Shown here: piece after piece, positions 466 to 15,574 of the stretch
Position numbering within the stretch: position 1 is the first letter of the stretch
Layout of the letters: every line of letters begins with the position of its first letter
Source: Alistipes sp.
GTDB taxonomy: Bacteria; Bacteroidota; Bacteroidia; Bacteroidales; Rikenellaceae
NCBI GenBank assembly: GCA_017631135.1
Contig: JAGBTW010000018.1
Location: 1-16,453 of the forward strand
DNA length: 16,453 nucleotides
Reading direction: 5' to 3'
Notes under the pieces: model-generated
Database searches by the model: none
What the model was told of the DNA's origin: nothing
What the model saw: the letters and a program-made list of their open reading frames with translations, nothing else
Translations under genes and position numbers: made by a program

Positions 466-1581
466 ATGAGAATAAGAATTGTACCATCGCTTCCTGGCTT
501 CCGCACCCTCGATAGATATATCCTGGGTAAGTTCTTGCGCACCTACATCTTCGGCATCATGATGATGGTCATCATCCTTGTTGTGTTTGACTATGTAGAG
601 AAGGTTGATGACTTCACGGAGCTGCATGCGCCATGGAAGGCTATCATCTGGGACTACTACATGAACTTCATACCGCAGTTCATAAGTCAGTTTAGTGCCC
701 TCTTCACCTTTATCTCGGTCATCTTCTTCACCTCGAAGATGGCGATGCAGACCGAGATTGTGGCGATACTCTCGGGTGGCGTTAGCTTCCGCCGCTTCAT
801 GTGGCCCTACATGATGGGCGCGATGATAATCACCACGTTGAGCCTCATCTTGAGCCTATGGATAATACCCGAGGGTCAGAAGGCGAGCGTGGAGTTTCAA
901 AGCAAATACATGAAGAGTCGCCAGACGCTTGTCTACCCCGAGCATGTATACCGCCAAATAGAGCCCGACACATACGCCTATGTGCGTGGCTTCTCGCCCA
1001 ACTTCGGTCGTGTCCCCTTCTTCGCTATCGAGCGCTTCGAGGGTGCCGAACTTGTCGAGACGCTCGACGCTGCAAATGCCTCGTTCGACAAGGAGACAAA
1101 GCGCTGGACAGCACCGCGCTACATGATATATTCGCGTGGTGAGGATGGCACGCTTGCCAGCAAGCAGTATCGCAACCTTGACACACTCATAAACCTCGAT
1201 GTGCGCGAGCTGGGCGACATATCGGGCGTGGTGAAGACTCTGACCTACGAGGAGCTTAACGACTTCCTCTCGCAGCAGCGCAGCAAGGGCTCGGACGAGG
1301 TGTTCCTAATCGAGGTGGAGCGTCATGCGCGCTTCTCGTACCCCTTGTCGACGTTCATCCTCACAGTCATTGGCGTGGCTCTTGCATCGCGCAAGATACG
1401 CGGTGGTATGGGTATGCATATCGGTATGGGTATTGCCCTGTGCTTCAGCTACTTGATGCTTGGTCGAGTGTTCGAGCAAGTTGCCATAGGTGGCTCGATA
1501 GAGCCTTGGGTGGGAGTGTGGCTCCCGAATATAGTATTTGCCATTATCGCAATTATTGTCTACCAAAAAGCACCTAAATAG
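466..1581 (+). CDS. LptF/LptG (YjgP/YjgQ) family LPS-export permease
   Basis: This is an inner-membrane permease of the Lpt ABC transporter, which extracts lipopolysaccharide and passes it to LptC and the periplasmic bridge. The 371 residues have the family layout: three N-terminal membrane segments (about 22-42, 66-90, 112-134), a periplasmic beta-jellyroll-like domain (about 140-285), and three C-terminal membrane segments (about 291-308, 313-338, 347-366). The cytoplasmic segment TEIVAILSGGVSFRRF at 96-111 matches the helix that couples to the LptB ATPase. LptF and LptG are hard to tell apart from sequence alone, so I give no symbol. The gene lies 24 bases after tgt and 2 bases before the next gene, which implies translation from a shared mRNA. 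An ATG at 443 in the upstream gap is closed by a stop within a few codons, so 466 is the start. An LptC-like gene lies at 14546-15574, outside this operon. Confidence 0.93.
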   Translation: MRIRIVPSLPGFRTLDRYILGKFLRTYIFGIMMMVIILVVFDYVEKVDDFTELHAPWKAIIWDYYMNFIPQFISQFSALFTFISVIFFTSKMAMQTEIVAILSGGVSFRRFMWPYMMGAMIITTLSLILSLWIIPEGQKASVEFQSKYMKSRQTLVYPEHVYRQIEPDTYAYVRGFSPNFGRVPFFAIERFEGAELVETLDAANASFDKETKRWTAPRYMIYSRGEDGTLASKQYRNLDTLINLDVRELGDISGVVKTLTYEELNDFLSQQRSKGSDEVFLIEVERHARFSYPLSTFILTVIGVALASRKIRGGMGMHIGMGIALCFSYLMLGRVFEQVAIGGSIEPWVGVWLPNIVFAIIAIIVYQKAPK

Positions 1582-1583
1582 TC

Positions 1584-3782
1584 ATGCAAAACATAAACGA
1601 TATTGTTGCTTCGATACGTCGTGGTGAGCGACTCTCGGCTAGCGATGCTCTTGTGCTATGGCGCGAAGCACCGCTGTGGCTTTTGGGCGAGCTCGCTACG
1701 CAGCGCAAACGAGAGGTTAGTGGTCGTAGCGTGTTCTACAATCGCAATGTGCACCTCGAGCCCTCGAATGTATGCCTCTTTAACTGCGAGTTTTGTTCGT
1801 TCCGCCGCCGTGATGGCGACCCCGACGCGTGGACAATGAGTATTGACGAGGTCGAGGCGCGCGCAAAGGAGTTGCGCAGTGCCGACATCACAGAGGTGCA
1901 TATCGTAGGTGGTGTACACCCGAGTCACAACCTCGATACCTATGTCGAGATGGTGCGTCGCGTAAAGCGTCAGCTGCCACATGTTGCTGTCAAGGCATAC
2001 ACCGCGGTGGAGATATTCTATATGATTAGCCGTGCGGGAGTTTCCATCGCCGAGGGTTTGCGCCGTCTTGCCGAGGCGGGCATGGAGTGCATACCTGGTG
2101 GTGGAGCAGAGATATTCGATGCTGCGCTACGCAAGAAGATATGTCCCGATAAGTGTAGCGCCGAGGAGTGGCTTGAGGTGCATCGCGAGGCGCACAAGAT
2201 GGGTCTCTCGACAAACTGCACGATGCTCTATGGTCACATCGAGACGCTTGACGAGCGCGTTGACCACTTGGAGCGCTTGCGTAAGTTGCAGGACGAGGCG
2301 CCAGGCTTCGACGCCTTCATTCCGCTAAAGTATCACAGTCGCAACAATCGCCTCTCGGCAGCTGGTGAGTGCTCGGTGGAGGATGATCTCCGCACGATAG
2401 CCATAAGTCGCCTCTTCTTGGATAACATCCCACACATCAAGGCTTATTGGGTGTCGTATGGCAAGGCGACAACGGAGATGGCGCTGGCATTTGGTGCAGA
2501 CGACATCGACGGCACTATAGGCGACACAACGAAGATATACTCCATGGCGGGAGGCACGGAGCGCCCCTCTATGAGTGTCGAGGAGTTAGAAAATATGGTG
2601 CGAGCTGCGGGCATGGAGCCCGTGGAGCGCGATTCGCACTACAATGTTGTAACAAAAAAGGTGGTCGACAAAGTAGAGCGTGTAGAGAATAAGATGGAGC
2701 ATAAGAGCATAGAAACAAAGAAGATAGCAACTATGGCAGAGGAGAGAGTTGTTGCAAGAAGCAAGGCGAGAGAGCCCGAGCGTGCAGCCACAAAGAGAGC
2801 AACTGCGCCTGTGCGCACTACGCAGAGCCGAAAGCCTGCGGGCGAGGGTCGCACAAAGAACGCAAAGAGCACGGTGTGGGCATTTTTGCGCCGTAGACCC
2901 ATCATCGCAAACATCTTGTACATAGGCATCTTTTGCATGGCGCTTGTCGTAGTGTTGTTCTTCGCGCTAAAGAGTGGCACACGACACAACAATACGATTG
3001 TCGTTCCCAACTTCGTGGGTATGACCATAGGCGAGGCGCGTGCCGATGCCGAGCGTCGAGACCTAAATATCGTTGTGCGCGACTCTATCTTTGATGTAGA
3101 CCTCCCTGGAGGCACTATCGTTGACCAGCTGCCTGGAACATCCGAGGTGCGCGACGTTACGGTGAAGCCTGGTCGCAAGATATATGTTACGGTAAACGCC
3201 TTTAACCGACGTCAGGTCGATGTGCCTTATGTAGCCAAGCAGACATTGCGCCAGGCACTCAACCAGCTTGAGCGCTCGGGACTTACGGTCGACAAGCTTG
3301 TCTATGAGCCGGATATGACATCTACGGACTATGTTGAGCGACAGATGGTTGGTGGCAAGGAGATAACCTCGACATCGAACCGCAAGGTGTCGGTGGGCAC
3401 AGGTGTAACGCTCTATGTGACCTATCATCGCGACAATCAACAGACATTTGCCCCCCGCGTTGTAGGCATGTCGTTGGCAAAGGCAAAGGCTAACCTTTGG
3501 GATTATGGTCTCAATGTGGGTAAGGTCGTCTACGACGAGAGCGTGAGTGATGTCATTGAGCGACGCCAGGCGCGCGTATATAAGCAGTCGGTGGCTATAG
3601 GCTCGGTGCACGACCGAGGTACAAAGGTTGATATATACCTCTCGGCAAACGACAACCTTGTAGATTCGTTGAGGTTGGTAGCCGAGAAGGAGGCGGAGCG
3701 TGCCGAGACGGAGCGCCGCAAGCTGCAACAGGCAAAGCAGCGCGAGGCAGATAGCCTTGCAAAGTTGGGAGTAATTAATTAA
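1584..3782 (+). CDS. Fusion: MqnE-like aminofutalosine synthase domain + membrane anchor + three PASTA repeats
   Basis: Residues 1 to about 356 resemble MqnE, the radical-SAM enzyme that joins SAM to a chorismate-derived substrate to make aminofutalosine for menaquinone. The iron-sulfur motif CLFNCEFC has C64, C68 and C71, and HLEPSNVC, IPGGGAEIF (170-178) and YWVSYG (288-293) are family-like. A basic Lys/Arg/Glu/Ala linker spans about 357-432. Then come RRR at 437-439, one membrane segment (about 440-463), three PASTA repeats (about 471-540, 545-615, 621-688) and a charged, probably coiled tail (690-727). Positive charges before the segment predict N-inside, C-outside, so the enzyme would be cytosolic and the PASTA part periplasmic. 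MqnE enzymes are normally about 370 aa and end near residue 356 here. Free-standing PASTA proteins next to rluD are the usual Bacteroidota arrangement, so this looks like a fusion of neighbours. In-frame M371, M384 and GTG codon 431 (base 2874) are possible internal starts. A related CofH/MqnC-type activity cannot be excluded. Confidence 0.88.
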   Translation: MQNINDIVASIRRGERLSASDALVLWREAPLWLLGELATQRKREVSGRSVFYNRNVHLEPSNVCLFNCEFCSFRRRDGDPDAWTMSIDEVEARAKELRSADITEVHIVGGVHPSHNLDTYVEMVRRVKRQLPHVAVKAYTAVEIFYMISRAGVSIAEGLRRLAEAGMECIPGGGAEIFDAALRKKICPDKCSAEEWLEVHREAHKMGLSTNCTMLYGHIETLDERVDHLERLRKLQDEAPGFDAFIPLKYHSRNNRLSAAGECSVEDDLRTIAISRLFLDNIPHIKAYWVSYGKATTEMALAFGADDIDGTIGDTTKIYSMAGGTERPSMSVEELENMVRAAGMEPVERDSHYNVVTKKVVDKVERVENKMEHKSIETKKIATMAEERVVARSKAREPERAATKRATAPVRTTQSRKPAGEGRTKNAKSTVWAFLRRRPIIANILYIGIFCMALVVVLFFALKSGTRHNNTIVVPNFVGMTIGEARADAERRDLNIVVRDSIFDVDLPGGTIVDQLPGTSEVRDVTVKPGRKIYVTVNAFNRRQVDVPYVAKQTLRQALNQLERSGLTVDKLVYEPDMTSTDYVERQMVGGKEITSTSNRKVSVGTGVTLYVTYHRDNQQTFAPRVVGMSLAKAKANLWDYGLNVGKVVYDESVSDVIERRQARVYKQSVAIGSVHDRGTKVDIYLSANDNLVDSLRLVAEKEAERAETERRKLQQAKQREADSLAKLGVIN

Positions 3783-3798
3783 GCAACAGATATATAAC

Positions 3799-4890
3799 GT
3801 GATAAACGAAGAATTGTACGATAGAGAGGATGTAGAGCTCTTGGATGGCGTTACGGATGGCGCAGACGAGGGTGATGAGATGTACGAGCACTTTGCGGTG
3901 ACCGTGGATAAGGGTCAGTCGCAGATGCGTCTCGACAAGTATCTCACCATACGCCTTGAGCACACATCGCGTAACCGCATACAGACGGCTGCCGATGGCA
4001 AAAATATCCTTGTGAATGGCAAGCCACAGAAGTCGAGCTACAAGATTAAGCCCCTCGACCAAATATCTATCGTGATGCCCTATCCCCGCCATAAGGAGGA
4101 GATTGTGCCCGAGAACATACCCCTCGACATTGTCTACGAGGATGATGATGTTATCGTGGTAAACAAGCCTGCGGGCATGGTTGTGCACCCAGGTGTCGGC
4201 AACCACAGCGGCACGTTGGTGCACGCGTTGTCGTACCACTTGAGCGAGCTGGAGATGTTCTCGGAGGGCAATGCCCGCGCGGGACTTGTCCATCGCATCG
4301 ATAAGGACACATCGGGACTGTTGGTCGTGGCGAAGAATGAGCGTGCTCATGCGGCACTTGCGAAGCAGTTTTTTGACCACACCATCTATCGCCGCTATGT
4401 AGCCCTTGTGTGGGGTAACATCGCCGAGGATGAGGGTACGATAATCGGTAACATTGGCCGTAGCCCCAAGGATAGATTGCAGATGTATGTCTTTGAGGAT
4501 GGCTCGGATGGTAAGCACGCAGTGACACACTTCAAGGTGTTGCGTCGCTATGGCTATGTCACGCTTGTTGAGTGTCGCCTGGAGACGGGACGCACACACC
4601 AAATTCGTGTGCACATGTCATGGCAGGGACACCCACTCTTTAACGACGAGCGCTATGGTGGCAACCGCATACTTAAGGGCACGACATTCATGAAGTATAA
4701 GCAGTTCATCGAAAACTGCTTCAAGCTTATCCCCCGCCAGTCGTTGCATGCTCGCGCTTTGGGCTTCGAGCACCCCACGACGGGCAAGTATGTGCAGTTT
4801 GAGTCGGAGCTGCCCGATGACTTCAAGGCTGTATTGCAGAAGTGGGACACCTACACCGACGCTGTAGGGCTCGATATGGATGATATATAA
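3799..4890 (+). CDS. RluD-like pseudouridine synthase (RluA family), GTG start
   Basis: This enzyme isomerises uridine to pseudouridine in RNA; RluD acts on helix 69 of 23S rRNA. Of the 363 residues, about 1-30 form an acidic tail, an S4 RNA-binding domain follows (about 42-90, MRLDKYL near its start), and the catalytic domain covers about 110-330. The active-site motif HRIDKDTSG at 165-173 carries the catalytic aspartate D168. NKPAGMVVHPG (122-132) and ETGRTHQIRVHM are further family motifs. The start is a GTG at 3799, since no in-frame ATG lies between the previous stop and it. The first in-frame ATG is codon 28 (3880), just before the S4 domain. I prefer the GTG because acidic N-terminal extensions are common in Bacteroidota relatives, but codon 28 is possible. 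The gap to the fusion gene is 16 bases. The RluA family is certain; the exact target (RluD) is inferred from the domain layout and the PASTA neighbour. Confidence 0.92.
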   Translation: MINEELYDREDVELLDGVTDGADEGDEMYEHFAVTVDKGQSQMRLDKYLTIRLEHTSRNRIQTAADGKNILVNGKPQKSSYKIKPLDQISIVMPYPRHKEEIVPENIPLDIVYEDDDVIVVNKPAGMVVHPGVGNHSGTLVHALSYHLSELEMFSEGNARAGLVHRIDKDTSGLLVVAKNERAHAALAKQFFDHTIYRRYVALVWGNIAEDEGTIIGNIGRSPKDRLQMYVFEDGSDGKHAVTHFKVLRRYGYVTLVECRLETGRTHQIRVHMSWQGHPLFNDERYGGNRILKGTTFMKYKQFIENCFKLIPRQSLHARALGFEHPTTGKYVQFESELPDDFKAVLQKWDTYTDAVGLDMDDI

Positions 4891-7236: not shown

Positions 7237-8145
7237 TTATGCCTTGATGTTTCGCTTTATTCGGGCGAGGCCAGCGCGGGTCATTGCCGTAGAGCCCGCC
7301 ATGGCGAGAAACTCCTCCTCGGTCATCTTGGTCCATGCCTCGCTATCAAGCGCCGTGGGGTCGAATAGCGGGTCGAATAGTGGGTGGTTGTGCATTGGGG
7401 CTTTGAGGTTATAGGGACACACACTCTGGCATGCGTCGCAACCGAATATCCAGCCATCGAGTTCCTGTGTCGACGACTCGCTCTCGCGCTCTATGGTTCG
7501 GCACGATATGCAACGCCTTGTGTCGATAGTTCTATTCTCCAATATAGCACCGTTGGGGCATGCCTCGATGCAGCGTCTGCACTCGCCACAGCCAACACTC
7601 TCGAGCGGTGCGTCGTACATGTCGACCTCCTCGTCGATGATGAGCTCGCCGAGGTGGAGCATAGAGCCATACTTGGGGTTTACGAGCAGCGAGTTGCGAC
7701 CTATCCATCCCAGCCCTGCACGTGCGGCATAGCTCTTCTCGGCAATGGGGGCAGAGTCGGTGAAGGCGCGGAAGCGGAGCGTGGGGCAGTGCTGTTTAAG
7801 CGTGGCTGCAAGAGCGTTGAGCATCTCCTTGATTGTGACGTGGTAGTCGCGTGCCAAGGCATAAGATGCAACCTTGGTGTTACACCCCTTGTCGTAGCCG
7901 CGACTATAGGGCGATAGGTACGAAATAGCACAAATAATTATGCACCTCGACCCTTCGACCAAAAGTGATGCGTCAAAGCGTTTTTCTATGTTGCGCGAGA
8001 GGTAGTCGAGTGTCGAGCTGTTACCCGCTAACAGCCACTCATTAAAGAGGTTATGCTGTTCGTGCAGATGTTCTGCGGGCACTATACCCACAAGGTCGAA
8101 GCCCACCTCTCGGGCTGCGTTTATGATGATATTTCGGCCTATCAT
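7237..8145 (-). CDS. queG: Epoxyqueuosine reductase (QueG), short form without HEAT domain
   Basis: QueG reduces epoxyqueuosine to queuosine in tRNA, the last step of the pathway, using cobalamin and two [4Fe-4S] clusters. With the ATG at 8145 the protein has 302 residues. FTDSAPIAEKSYAARAGLGWIGRN (starting near 128) carries D130, which matches the catalytic aspartate. The ferredoxin-like module has CGECRRCIEACP (C186, C189, C192, C196), C212 and C215, and CDACQSVCP (C236, C239, C243). The protein ends about 60 residues later; the C-terminal HEAT-like tRNA-binding domain of the roughly 380-residue Escherichia coli and Bacillus proteins is missing. A TTG at 8163 would add six residues, but it lies inside a possible promoter -7 box and the ATG gives the usual N-terminus. 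The gene converges with the lipoprotein gene and diverges from the acyl-CoA synthetase. Its partner tgt is at the left edge of the window. Confidence 0.94.
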   Translation of the reverse strand: MIGRNIIINAAREVGFDLVGIVPAEHLHEQHNLFNEWLLAGNSSTLDYLSRNIEKRFDASLLVEGSRCIIICAISYLSPYSRGYDKGCNTKVASYALARDYHVTIKEMLNALAATLKQHCPTLRFRAFTDSAPIAEKSYAARAGLGWIGRNSLLVNPKYGSMLHLGELIIDEEVDMYDAPLESVGCGECRRCIEACPNGAILENRTIDTRRCISCRTIERESESSTQELDGWIFGCDACQSVCPYNLKAPMHNHPLFDPLFDPTALDSEAWTKMTEEEFLAMAGSTAMTRAGLARIKRNIKA

Positions 8146-8160
8146 TGAAATTATTTTTGG

Positions 8161-8168
8161 CAAAAATA
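8161..8168 (-). promoter_or_regulatory. Possible -7 box for queG
   Basis: Read on the minus strand, 8168 to 8161 is TATTTTTG, a match to TAnnTTTG. It sits only 15 bases upstream of the queG ATG, which would give a very short leader. No TTG or TTTG lies at the expected -33 spacing, and the region is AT-rich, so a chance match is quite possible. Confidence 0.3.
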
Positions 8169-11143: not shown

Positions 11144-13105
11144 CTACAACTCGCTTGCACCGCGCTTGTCAACCACCTGGACACCGTCCATCATGTAGTT
11201 CTCGAAGTTGCGGTTAACGTCAGCCTTTGCAGCCTCGTTCATCTCCTTGCGCTTCTCCTCTACGCCAGCCTTTGCAGCCTCGGTGTTGTTGATGTTGTCA
11301 ACAACGAAGAGGTATACACCTGCGTTACCCTTAACAAATGTGGGCTCGCCGCTCTTTGTGCTGCGTGCGATAGCGCCTACGAAGATGGGGTCGTTAGCCT
11401 CGCCAGCAGCAACTGAAGTGAAGTTTACGCCGTTGAACTTACCGCTCTTCATACCCTCGATAGAGGCATCCATAGCGAGAGTGTTCTTTGCAACAGCAAA
11501 CTTCTTATCCTTCTCAACCTCGCGCTTTGCAAGACGCTCGTCGCTAACAACATACTTGTCGTTGTTGATAGCTGTAACCATGCAAACGTAGATAACATTC
11601 TTTGATGTCCAGCTCTTTGTGTCACCCACCTCGGCGTCGTATGTCCAGATTGCAAGGTTGCGTGAGTCCTCGATGCCGCTTACAGAGTGGAATGCCTGTG
11701 CGGGGTTAGTGCCACGAGATACTACGCGGTTCATGGGGAACTTACCAATCTTTGATGCTGCCTCGTTGAATGTCTCGGGCTTCTTGCCAGCCTCTGCCAA
11801 GAGCTTCTTTGAGTCTGCAACAATCTTGTCGTATGTCTCGTTGCTTGCCTTAACGGTGTACTCAACGTTTGCAGTAAGAACGAAGTTATCCTTCTTGCCG
11901 AGCTCGGTAATCTTAACTACTGCGGGCTTGTTGTTTACTGTGTGTGTGAACACGTCGCCAACCTTTGCGTTGAGGAACTTCTCTGCGTCACGCTCTGTCA
12001 AAGCAGCCATCTTCACAGTCTCGGTAGTTGCGTTAGCACCAGCCTCAATCTCTGCGAGGTTGCCGTTAACAGCCTTAATCTCCTCAACGAGCTTGTCAGC
12101 AGCCAAGGGTGACTCGGTTGTGATAGCGCTGAAAGTGAAGCTCTCGGGTGCTGATACCTTCTTAACGATGTACTTTGCATTCCAAGTGTCACCCTCGAGA
12201 ACGGGACCATAGTTCTCGCCAGCCTTGATAGCCTTTGCCTCGGCCTCGCTCAATGAGCTAACTGCAACATAGTTACCCACCTTGCCGTCAACGCCACGGA
12301 TAGCGCTCTTGATAGCCTTAACATCGCCATTAGCAGCCTTTACTGCCTCGTTAGCCTTCATGATAGCCTCCTCTGCAGCAACCTTATCCTCCTCGCTTGC
12401 CTCGATGTCGAAGCGAACATAAGCGATTGTGCGTGCGCCAAAGTTGGGGTTCTCCTTGCGGTGTGCCTCGGCATAAGCGTCAGTCTCTGCCTTTGTAGCC
12501 TCCTCTGCAGTGATAGCTGCGTAGGGCAACATTACATAGTGACCGTCGAATGTAAGGTTCTCGTTGCGGAGTGCCTCCTCAACCTCAAGGCTGTTGGCGA
12601 ACTTACCAGCAGCGTAGGTGTTGGTAGCCTTAACAAGAGTTGTAGAGACGTCGATGCCACCGCTCATAGCCTTCATCTGCTCCCAGTTGTAAGCGATAGC
12701 GTTCTCGAAGTCAGCCTTCTCCATGCTCAACGCTGTGGGGTCGTTGTTAAGGATGTTGTTGGTGTACTCAACGAACATAGCCTCCTCATCTGAAGCTACG
12801 AAGCCCAAACCTGCAGCCTCGTATGCGGGGTGAAGATACTTGTCGAATGCGATGCGGTGATAAACAGCCTGTGCTGTGTAGTCGGGGTTAACACCCTCCA
12901 TCGCATACTCCTGTACATACTTTGCGTACTCTGACTGCTTAACCTCTGTGCCATCGATTGTGAGTACTACATTGTCAGTAATCTGTGCGTTGCCACGGCC
13001 ACGCATAGAGAGCTGATCACCAAGAATAAATGCAACAAGTACGAGTGCAATGACTACAGAGAGTACAATGCCGTACTTGGTTCTTAATGTGTTTAATGAA
13101 GCCAT
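11144..13105 (-). CDS. Membrane-anchored PpiD/SurA-like periplasmic protein with a degenerate parvulin region
   Basis: The 653 residues match the Bacteroidota proteins usually annotated as peptidylprolyl isomerase or SurA N-terminal domain protein. A single membrane anchor lies at about 12-30 (near LVLVAFILGD), followed by a large, Ala/Glu/Lys-rich periplasmic part that would assist folding of outer-membrane proteins. Helical SurA-N-like sequence covers about 45-215. In relatives a parvulin domain follows YGPVLEGDTW (299-308), starting with an ARHIL-type strand and holding a GGDLG motif. Here the corresponding stretch (about 322-402) reads ESFTFSAITTES onward, has no ARHIL, no GGDLG, and is about 20 residues shorter. 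The closing element KPAVVKITELG (393-403) is still parvulin-like. I therefore call it a chaperone-like relative that probably lacks isomerase activity. It has its own promoter (13145-13152) and terminator and follows the CNNM/CBS gene after a 146-base gap. Confidence 0.82.
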   Translation of the reverse strand: MASLNTLRTKYGIVLSVVIALVLVAFILGDQLSMRGRGNAQITDNVVLTIDGTEVKQSEYAKYVQEYAMEGVNPDYTAQAVYHRIAFDKYLHPAYEAAGLGFVASDEEAMFVEYTNNILNNDPTALSMEKADFENAIAYNWEQMKAMSGGIDVSTTLVKATNTYAAGKFANSLEVEEALRNENLTFDGHYVMLPYAAITAEEATKAETDAYAEAHRKENPNFGARTIAYVRFDIEASEEDKVAAEEAIMKANEAVKAANGDVKAIKSAIRGVDGKVGNYVAVSSLSEAEAKAIKAGENYGPVLEGDTWNAKYIVKKVSAPESFTFSAITTESPLAADKLVEEIKAVNGNLAEIEAGANATTETVKMAALTERDAEKFLNAKVGDVFTHTVNNKPAVVKITELGKKDNFVLTANVEYTVKASNETYDKIVADSKKLLAEAGKKPETFNEAASKIGKFPMNRVVSRGTNPAQAFHSVSGIEDSRNLAIWTYDAEVGDTKSWTSKNVIYVCMVTAINNDKYVVSDERLAKREVEKDKKFAVAKNTLAMDASIEGMKSGKFNGVNFTSVAAGEANDPIFVGAIARSTKSGEPTFVKGNAGVYLFVVDNINNTEAAKAGVEEKRKEMNEAAKADVNRNFENYMMDGVQVVDKRGASEL

Positions 13106-14520: not shown

Positions 14521-14546
14521 GGTGTCTCCCTCAAGTGGAGCACACC
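14521..14546. repeat. Intergenic hairpin between lptC-like and CNNM/CBS genes
   Basis: GGTGT plus CTCC (14521-14529) pairs with GGAG plus ACACC (14537-14546), giving nine pairs with one bulged base and a 7-base loop. It begins at the stop codon of the lptC-like gene on the minus strand. No T-run follows, so it is more likely an mRNA-processing or stabilising hairpin, or a weak attenuator, within an operon than a full terminator. Confidence 0.45.
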
Positions 14547-15574
14547 TACTTACTCTTTTTAGAGGTAGAGATGTCGCTGTTTAGGTCGAAGTTATTTGTA
14601 GACATGTCCAACGAGAAATCCTGCGTCTGCAGCTTTGTCTGCTCGGGTGGCGTCTGGCGCTTTACTGCCGCCGATGGCAGGTTTGTGCGGTCGTTGCCAG
14701 ATTGCTCCTTACGGTTGGATTTCGCCGATGTGGGTGATGTCGAGCGGGGTGATGTAGCCTGTGGTTTAGAGCTGCCGTTTCCTCGCTGATTTGTTGGGCG
14801 TATAGTGTTGCTTTTGGGCTTGTTATCCTTGCCCTCTTTGCCGCCCTTATTGTTGTTTTTGTCGCCTCTTTCAGCCTTTGTTGAGCCACTCTGTTTTCCG
14901 CTCTTTGACGACTTGTCTTTATCGTCGCTATTTGCCTCCTCGTTCTTCTTGTTCTCGGCCTCTATCTCCTCGGGGGTGGGCTGACTCATGTCAAACTCCA
15001 TCTCGGAGCTATACTTGCGGAAGTGGATGTTTTTGAGGTCCTCATCGGCGTCAAAGCCTACACCAAAGTGCCAGCCATCGGGCTGCAAAATCTTGGTGTC
15101 GACATTCGAGTATATCTTCTTTGTCGTAGCGTTCCAAAAGAGCTGTTGTGTGTATATCTCCGTTTGGTTCTTTACGGTTGTATCGCCCTTGTCGCGATTA
15201 TTTTTGATGATGATGACATTACCCTTTGCCTCCCACAACCTCTGATTTTCGTAGTATATGGCGTAGTTTGCCCTGATGGTTGCATCTACAAGGTTTGTGG
15301 AGTCTTGGGTGTAGGTTGTCATGTCTATGCCGCGGCGAAACTCCTGATAGGGGTTTGCTGCGAGGCTATATCCCTCCATGAGCGGTGTGACGAAGGAGTA
15401 GGAGAGCATGCCGTTCTCCATCATCGTGATGGTGCGGTTTTCGCTCGACTCGGTCATCAGTGTCTCATAGTCATATTGTGTGGTTTTGGTGTCGTTGCTA
15501 CATGAGAATAGCAATGTAGCACTCCCCACAATGGAGAGTGCTAACACTGCATATCTTCTCAACGTTAGATGCAT
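14546..15574 (-). CDS. lptC: LptC-like LPS-export lipoprotein with a long low-complexity tail
   Basis: LptC takes lipopolysaccharide from the LptB2FG transporter and passes it along the periplasmic bridge. The N-terminus has a hydrophobic segment (8-24) ending in the lipobox LFSC with C25, so this looks like a lipoprotein where the Escherichia coli protein has a membrane helix. Residues about 32-197 fit the LptC beta-jellyroll, with the family-like stretches SYSFVTPLMEG (58-68), YYENQRLWEAKGNVII (107-122) and TQQLFWN (142-148). From about 198 to 342 the protein is a disordered-looking tail rich in Lys, Ser, Asn, Thr and Gly, and no domain is recognisable in it. Family members are usually near 190-200 aa. 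The start ATG is at 15574, 27 bases after the upstream TPR gene. The LptF/LptG permease is in the left operon of this window. Confidence 0.85.
   Translation of the reverse strand: MHLTLRRYAVLALSIVGSATLLFSCSNDTKTTQYDYETLMTESSENRTITMMENGMLSYSFVTPLMEGYSLAANPYQEFRRGIDMTTYTQDSTNLVDATIRANYAIYYENQRLWEAKGNVIIIKNNRDKGDTTVKNQTEIYTQQLFWNATTKKIYSNVDTKILQPDGWHFGVGFDADEDLKNIHFRKYSSEMEFDMSQPTPEEIEAENKKNEEANSDDKDKSSKSGKQSGSTKAERGDKNNNKGGKEGKDNKPKSNTIRPTNQRGNGSSKPQATSPRSTSPTSAKSNRKEQSGNDRTNLPSAAVKRQTPPEQTKLQTQDFSLDMSTNNFDLNSDISTSKKSK

Follow-up and report, generated by a model that had tools for sequence, protein, structure and literature searches.

A recurrent fusion of mqnE with a membrane-anchored PASTA gene in Alistipes, with a conserved internal ATG that may serve a second product

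In the Alistipes DNA analysed here (the window, a stretch of 16,453 nucleotides), a single reading frame joins MqnE, the aminofutalosine synthase, to a membrane-anchored triple-PASTA protein. This MqnE-PASTA fusion is confirmed as genuine, and its recurrence across many assemblies puts it beyond chance. Comparison with relatives demonstrates the fusion, its history, the retention of an in-frame linker ATG whose context across the family is partly start-like, and the retention of the open frame itself. From these observations, we consider it likely that one gene gives two products, namely MqnE-PASTA tethered to the membrane and PASTA as a free protein; selection would then have favoured the tethering of MqnE. 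The preliminary description, which read the frame as one fused protein, was right that the fusion is real but missed both its origin from operon neighbours and the apparent retention of the PASTA start codon. The fused protein is probably just one half of the gene's products.

Layout of the fused frame

The fused frame occupies positions 1584-3782 of the forward strand, on which all features given here lie, and is open throughout its 732 codons, as the preliminary description had stated. Residues 1-356 (1584..2651) form the MqnE part, assigned by family model, structural relative and conserved columns. Residues 8-356 score 441.1 bits against NCBIfam TIGR03700 (MqnE), just above its cut-off of 434.55, and the PDB relative 6xi9, 'Aminodeoxyfutalosine synthase', matches residues 7-358 at E 9.4e-109. 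A second MqnE model, NF006276 (PRK08444), gives 341.3 bits, far below its own cut-off of 560, and the MqnC model TIGR03699 gives 344.2 bits, below its own cut-off of 428.1. Pfam finds Radical_SAM at residues 59-232, CofH_C at 240-356 and PASTA, so that the domain identities proposed earlier hold. The CxxxCxxC radical-SAM motif is present, and its three cysteines (C64, C68 and C71), singled out in the preliminary description, do not vary among 20 aligned fused proteins. Among 92 separate MqnE proteins, 97 columns are near-invariant (at least 98% conserved), and 88 of these are fully retained in 37 fused rows; position 251 is altered in 20 of the 37, position 207 in 6, and seven further positions have one deviating fused row each. 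Residue 251 (2334-2336) is Arg in at least 98% of the 92 separate MqnE and His in the window.

Partner genes point the same way. A survey of the genus found an mqnE-type match (best E < 1e-100) in 64 of 101 genomes, and 63 of these 64 also carry PF02621 (MqnA/MqnD) genes. The window's own genome, a MAG of 1.29 Mb that is 63% complete, has one PF02621 locus, and a gene on its contig C98 reaches 426.1 bits with the MqnC model, just below the cut-off of 428.1. Based on family score, motif and partner genes, the MqnE part is a predicted aminofutalosine synthase. The 37 genomes with no mqnE-type match include 16 with no PF02621 match and 21 with at least one; the matches in the latter are mostly single, weak or partial and could be remnants or another binding protein. 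One such genome, G011, has two full PF02621 genes, and its mqnE may fall in an assembly gap.

The enzyme is followed by an upstream linker, delimited by comparison of linkers and 27 codons long in the window (2652..2732), which ends at an in-frame ATG (2733..2735). On its conservation and context, this ATG is the proposed start of a free 349-residue PASTA protein. Such a protein would begin with a basic tail, predicted to be cytosolic (2736..2897; recognised by K+R against D+E over 38 frames), and continue with a single membrane helix (2898..2978) of hydropathy 2.95 over 19 residues, three PASTA repeats (3000-3197, 3216-3419 and 3453-3644) and a charged C-terminal helix (3651..3764). The triple PASTA of the preliminary description is borne out by three PF03793 matches, of which the middle one (3216-3419) is weak, scoring 20 bits and falling below the cut-off when scored alone. 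An AlphaFold model of the fused protein, of modest confidence (mean pLDDT 61.9, pTM 0.46), has a disordered linker at residues 351-430, the membrane helix at 439-465, three alpha-beta units at the expected PASTA sites, and the C-terminal helix at 690-727, which was absent from the preliminary description. Searched against PDB sequences, the PASTA part gave no match at E 0.01. According to the positive-inside rule, the side of a membrane helix that carries its basic flank is cytosolic; the basic N-terminal flank of this single helix predicts a cytosolic MqnE enzyme with the PASTA repeats outside, in agreement with the topology first proposed.

The upstream operon neighbour is an LptF/LptG-type permease gene (466..1581; PF03739, frame and gene order), and the mqnE start lies 2 bases beyond its end. 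Downstream stands an RluD-type pseudouridine synthase gene, counted from its putative start (3799..4890; PF00849, S4 and gene order). Positions 1-441 of the window hold what we take from its translation to be tgt, a queuosine gene, and 7237-8163 hold QueG (PF08331), a second queuosine gene beside tgt. Along with the LptF/G-type gene, the window carries an LptC-type lipopolysaccharide export gene (14546-15574) and a SurA-like gene (11144-13105).

Recurrence and history of the fusion

All 200 genomes of a family survey, from 22 genera, match some part of the fused protein. Part of the matching regions were sorted by stop-free frames. Duplicates included, 54 loci were fused and 143 had mqnE and PASTA in separate frames; within reach, 40 showed mqnE alone and 7 PASTA alone. 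The fused frames reduce to 38 distinct sequences. When the best 120 proteins from each of two protein searches were pooled, at least 216 different fused proteins were obtained, every one with Radical_SAM, CofH_C and PASTA. Of 80 named loci, 24 are fused, with titles of Alistipes sp. (23) or Rikenellaceae bacterium (1); ruminant colon, cecum or rectum is named in 22 of these titles, and nearly all of the fused loci come from MAGs. At the level of the order, a separate PASTA frame was in reach in 16 of 29 loci and mqnE only in 13, and no fusion was found among the 27 classified order-level loci of families other than Rikenellaceae. The recurrence in related genomes that the preliminary description had asked about is thus plain. 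It had also envisaged that relatives might carry a stop and separate genes, with the fusion limited to this assembly; such relatives do exist, but the fusion is not so confined.

Two gene trees describe the history. In a tree of the MqnE domain (207 rows), 36 fused rows and the unfused loci L021 and L022 form one clade with support 100, the unfused pair being nested within it with support 98. The reverted L021 has stops in the former linker. The fused locus L172 stands at a distance from this clade, among unfused rows, and the protein P0121 is 96% identical to that of L172; another fused protein, P0122, is represented by one contig and falls with the unfused locus L040 (support 92). In a tree of the LptF protein (89 rows, 29 of them fused, with L172 left out), the fused label needs two changes, which fits one gain and one reversal independently of MqnE. 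The trees indicate that fusion happened once, long ago, in an Alistipes clade represented mainly by ruminant hindgut MAGs, and was reversed once there; two younger fusions probably arose elsewhere, in L172/P0121 and in P0122.

Outside the fused clade, mqnE and the PASTA gene are separate neighbours, other families of the order included. The order in the genus is tgt-lptF-mqnE-PASTA-rluD-ygiQ where the sequence stretch extends that far, and gene order indicates that the fusion arose from adjacent separate genes arranged as lptF-mqnE-PASTA-rluD. Among the 37 mqnE-less genomes of the genus, at least 21 have a match to the PASTA part. All seven mqnE-less loci examined read tgt-lptF-PASTA-rluD and group apart from the fused clade in the LptF tree; in these, mqnE appears to have been either cleanly removed or never present, and PASTA is retained. 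The PASTA gene lies in the mqnE frame in 43 of 90 separate pairs, and in 24 of the 90 a single stop intervenes (14 TAA, 10 TAG). These 24 pairs, one step short of fusion and with stop readthrough as a possibility, include L040, L042, L043, L052, L053, L055, L061, L064, L067, L071, L072 and L080, among others. The frame that runs into the separate PASTA gene of L079, L174 and L176 is open from 544-1090 bases before the mqnE stop; it differs from the mqnE frame and may be open by chance.

Within the fused clade, the upstream linker has been kept open. The clade tree (38 rows, reverted pair included) has a length of 10.0 over the whole mqnE coding sequence and 24.0 over third positions, and the upstream linker averages 57.6 codons. 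If unconstrained, it would be expected to have received about 71 or 170 stop-creating substitutions, a rough estimate since linker length changes along the tree, and one loss event is observed. Across the 14 closest pairs, dN/dS is 0.02-0.15 for MqnE and, where computable, 0.08-1.0 for the upstream linker, which implies weak constraint on the linker sequence. With the frame kept and its sequence loosely constrained, it seems that the frame matters and the sequence matters little, as for a tether.

The internal ATG and the two-product reading

An in-frame linker ATG, 24-80 codons ahead of the membrane helix, is present in all 38 distinct fused frames. The linker between enzyme end and helix is hypervariable, with 51-192 residues across relatives. 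In a MAFFT alignment of 40 linkers (38 fused, 2 reverted), a single column carries Met in 33 of the 37 rows that have a residue at that point. One ATG per linker was fixed by eye from this alignment; the shuffle and random-draw tests, the Met positions and the residue counts are free of that choice, and the other context tests use the ATG so chosen. A Met lies 22-85 residues before the helix in 215 of the 216 fused proteins and 19 residues before it in the remaining one, P0122. The first 120 proteins contain 74 unique linkers; all 74 have Met in the pre-helix zone, compared with 7 for Phe (similar in frequency to Met), 19 for Leu, and 70 for Ile and 74 for Asn, both twice as frequent. When codons were shuffled within linkers, the chance that all 38 retain a zone ATG was 0.00016.

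In P0122, the internal Met (MEKLAYYWKRLRQNRLAYN) corresponds to the first Met, the likely start, of the PASTA gene that its sister L040 carries separately (MEKLTYYWKKLRQNKLAYN); in the reverted L021 and L022, the first Met of the PASTA frame aligns with the internal Met of the fused frames. The PASTA tail is 24-80 residues long in fused frames and 7-59 in separate genes; it exceeds the length in most of the latter, which counts against a retained start. Over the 38 frames, the linker is acidic on average upstream of the ATG (22% D+E, 15% K+R) and basic downstream of it (7% D+E, 26% K+R). The window has a second linker ATG, at 2694; that at 2733 is favoured because it aligns with relatives.

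The nucleotide context is partly that of a start. A makes up 49% of the 18 bases before the ATG and 30% of the rest of the upstream linker; T occupies -1 in 29 of 38 frames against a background of 23%; and the mean RNA energy around the ATG is -2.0, against -8.2 elsewhere in the linker. In a common window, the RNA energy is -1.5 kcal/mol for internal ATGs, -2.3 for separate PASTA starts (n=92) and -3.0 for mqnE starts (n=103), both sets taken as the first Met, and -8.0 kcal/mol for other in-frame Mets (n=747). Taking the best ATG per linker without any choice, none of 2000 random draws, matched in number of codons per linker, was as extreme in structure or in A content. Of the 23 linkers that contain more than one ATG, 19 have the chosen codon in the least structured RNA. 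The window belongs to the other four, with -4.0 kcal/mol at 2733 and -1.0 at 2694, so the start used in the window is less sure than in the family. Context p-values count related sequences as independent. Seven representatives below 80% MqnE identity retain low structure (-1.6 kcal/mol) and 53% A, with T at -1 in 4 of 7 (p 0.05); the weaker T signal implies that the family p-values overstate independence.

The start marks described for F. johnsoniae are A at -3, -6, -12 and -13 and low structure (Baez et al. 2019, PMC6847099). At the internal ATGs, A is nominally enriched at -6 (p 0.01), -12 (p 0.001) and -13 (p 0.04), and is not clearly enriched at -3 (17 of 38 against 33%, p 0.09). The same source reports fewer ATG around starts in Bacteroidetes; depletion of ATG before the internal start is unsupported here (6/684 against 110/9591 per site, p 0.33), and an apparent depletion under GAT normalisation was set aside, GAT itself being common just before these ATGs. 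An internal PASTA promoter is disfavoured, as the -7 element TAnnTTTG of the Bacteroidetes promoter (PMC6847099) occurs within 300 bases upstream of the ATG in just 2 of 38 frames. As a class, the internal ATGs look like translation starts, being unstructured, A-rich and often preceded by T.

These results suggest the following course. In the ancestor, mqnE and a gene for a membrane-anchored triple-PASTA protein would have been separate operon neighbours; the mqnE stop would have been lost in an Alistipes lineage, with probably two further losses elsewhere, leaving a single frame in which the ATG of the PASTA gene was retained as an internal translation start. Initiation at 1584 would then yield a protein of 732 residues (82 kDa) in which the PASTA anchor ties MqnE to the inner membrane, and initiation at 2733 would give a free PASTA wall protein (349 residues, 39 kDa). 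Searches of 31 genomes (29 of them fused, 2 reverted) list no second multi-repeat PASTA locus, the other PF03793 matches being single repeats in frames of 734-812 codons. As PASTA is also kept where mqnE is missing, the free protein plausibly comes from the fused gene, and its retention in mqnE-less Alistipes makes a PASTA supply independent of MqnE plausible. The fuller account, a natural course of gene fusion in Bacteroidota in which stop loss between operon neighbours left a surviving internal start and both products came under selection, placing MqnE in a menaquinone-making assembly at the inner membrane and uncoupling the supply of PASTA, is offered tentatively, at a little under an even chance.

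It is also conceivable, if unlikely, that the long fusion protein alone is made; the conserved Met would then have persisted passively as a relic or have a structural role in the linker. The lack of clear enrichment at -3 and of ATG depletion would suit such a case, and charged residues near the ATG favour A-rich codons by themselves; however, a relic is unlikely to persist in 38 of 38 frames where linker length and residues turn over, and low structure and A-richness are nucleotide-level signals that a structural residue explains poorly. A shade less probable again is a neutral joined frame: stop loss would have been harmless, PASTA being supplied from the internal start, and the long form would be of little importance or be cut in two. 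Many relatives are one step from fusion (the 24 of 90 pairs with a single in-frame stop), one lineage reverted with both parts kept, and mqnE can be parted from PASTA, as other Alistipes show, all of which such neutrality would accommodate; it sits poorly with one observed loss where, by the rough estimate above, about 71-170 stop-creating changes are expected.

The preliminary description had proposed that the fusion might localise menaquinone synthesis or link it to wall status. Regulation of the fused MqnE by PASTA repeats that sense wall fragments, which would couple menaquinone synthesis to wall status, seems highly improbable to us. A linker of 51-192 residues that is disordered in the model offers a poor route for a conformational signal, and the persistence of PASTA in seven of seven mqnE-less loci examined argues against a tight functional bond, even though the topology (basic flank, one helix, PASTA outside) and the retention of most conserved MqnE residues are compatible with sensing. 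The source genome is a MAG that is 63% complete, and nearly all named fused loci come from MAGs, which could raise the suspicion of an assembly or frameshift artefact; its probability is negligible given 38 distinct fused frames from many assemblies, at least 216 proteins and one fused clade in both the MqnE and the LptF tree, and recurrence rules out an assembly artefact. The production of two proteins from one gene is the reading that we prefer.

Comparison with known systems

Fused genes are routinely taken as evidence of joint function and as one protein. The sequences compared here suggest that a fused frame can conceal an intact second gene; if two products are made, annotation as one 732-residue protein misses the free PASTA protein. 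With unfused relatives, an old fusion, its single reversal and two probable younger fusions at hand, the question of why operon neighbours fuse becomes testable. Since Bacteroidota mRNAs are described as being without Shine-Dalgarno sites (PMC6847099), the usual motif cannot reveal hidden starts; the one proposed here was flagged by ATG conservation, RNA structure and A content.

The enzyme part shares with MqnE (TIGR03700; 6xi9) its domain, length, most conserved residues and radical-SAM cysteines. Both the MqnE model and the unfused mqnE genes of relatives stop at the start of the linker, whereas the fused frame runs on into the membrane-anchored PASTA part. That part shares its helix, repeats and operon position with the single-helix PASTA protein that Rikenellaceae and other Bacteroidales encode separately, often before rluD. 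The internal ATG would yield exactly a protein of this separate type, but from a start inside the frame of another gene. PASTA Ser/Thr kinases (PknB/Stk1) combine a cytosolic enzyme, one helix and PASTA repeats outside. They share this overall architecture with the fused protein, whose enzyme is a radical-SAM protein and not a kinase: the family model NF033483 matches residues 358-687 alone, with 87 bits where the cut-off is 450, and Pfam finds no kinase family in the fused protein at 0.001, so that identity as a PASTA kinase was rejected for want of a kinase domain.

As the preliminary description had supposed, no account of an MqnE-PASTA protein was found in the open-licence literature searched. 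Parallels for the proposed internal start do exist. A MetRS fusion of Mycoplasma penetrans gives a smaller product that is lost on changing an internal Met and for which its authors propose an internal start (PMC7694997). It joins two enzyme domains, in proteins unrelated to MqnE-PASTA, and is backed by protein bands, whereas the present case is backed by comparing 38 frames with unfused relatives. SctQ/YscQ gives a full-length and a C-terminal product from one gene through an in-frame internal start (PMC4295842); it too is unrelated, its full-length form being FliM-like and its short form FliN-like. From these accounts of MetRS and SctQ, internal starts of this kind are known, and the MqnE-PASTA case is new within the literature searched.
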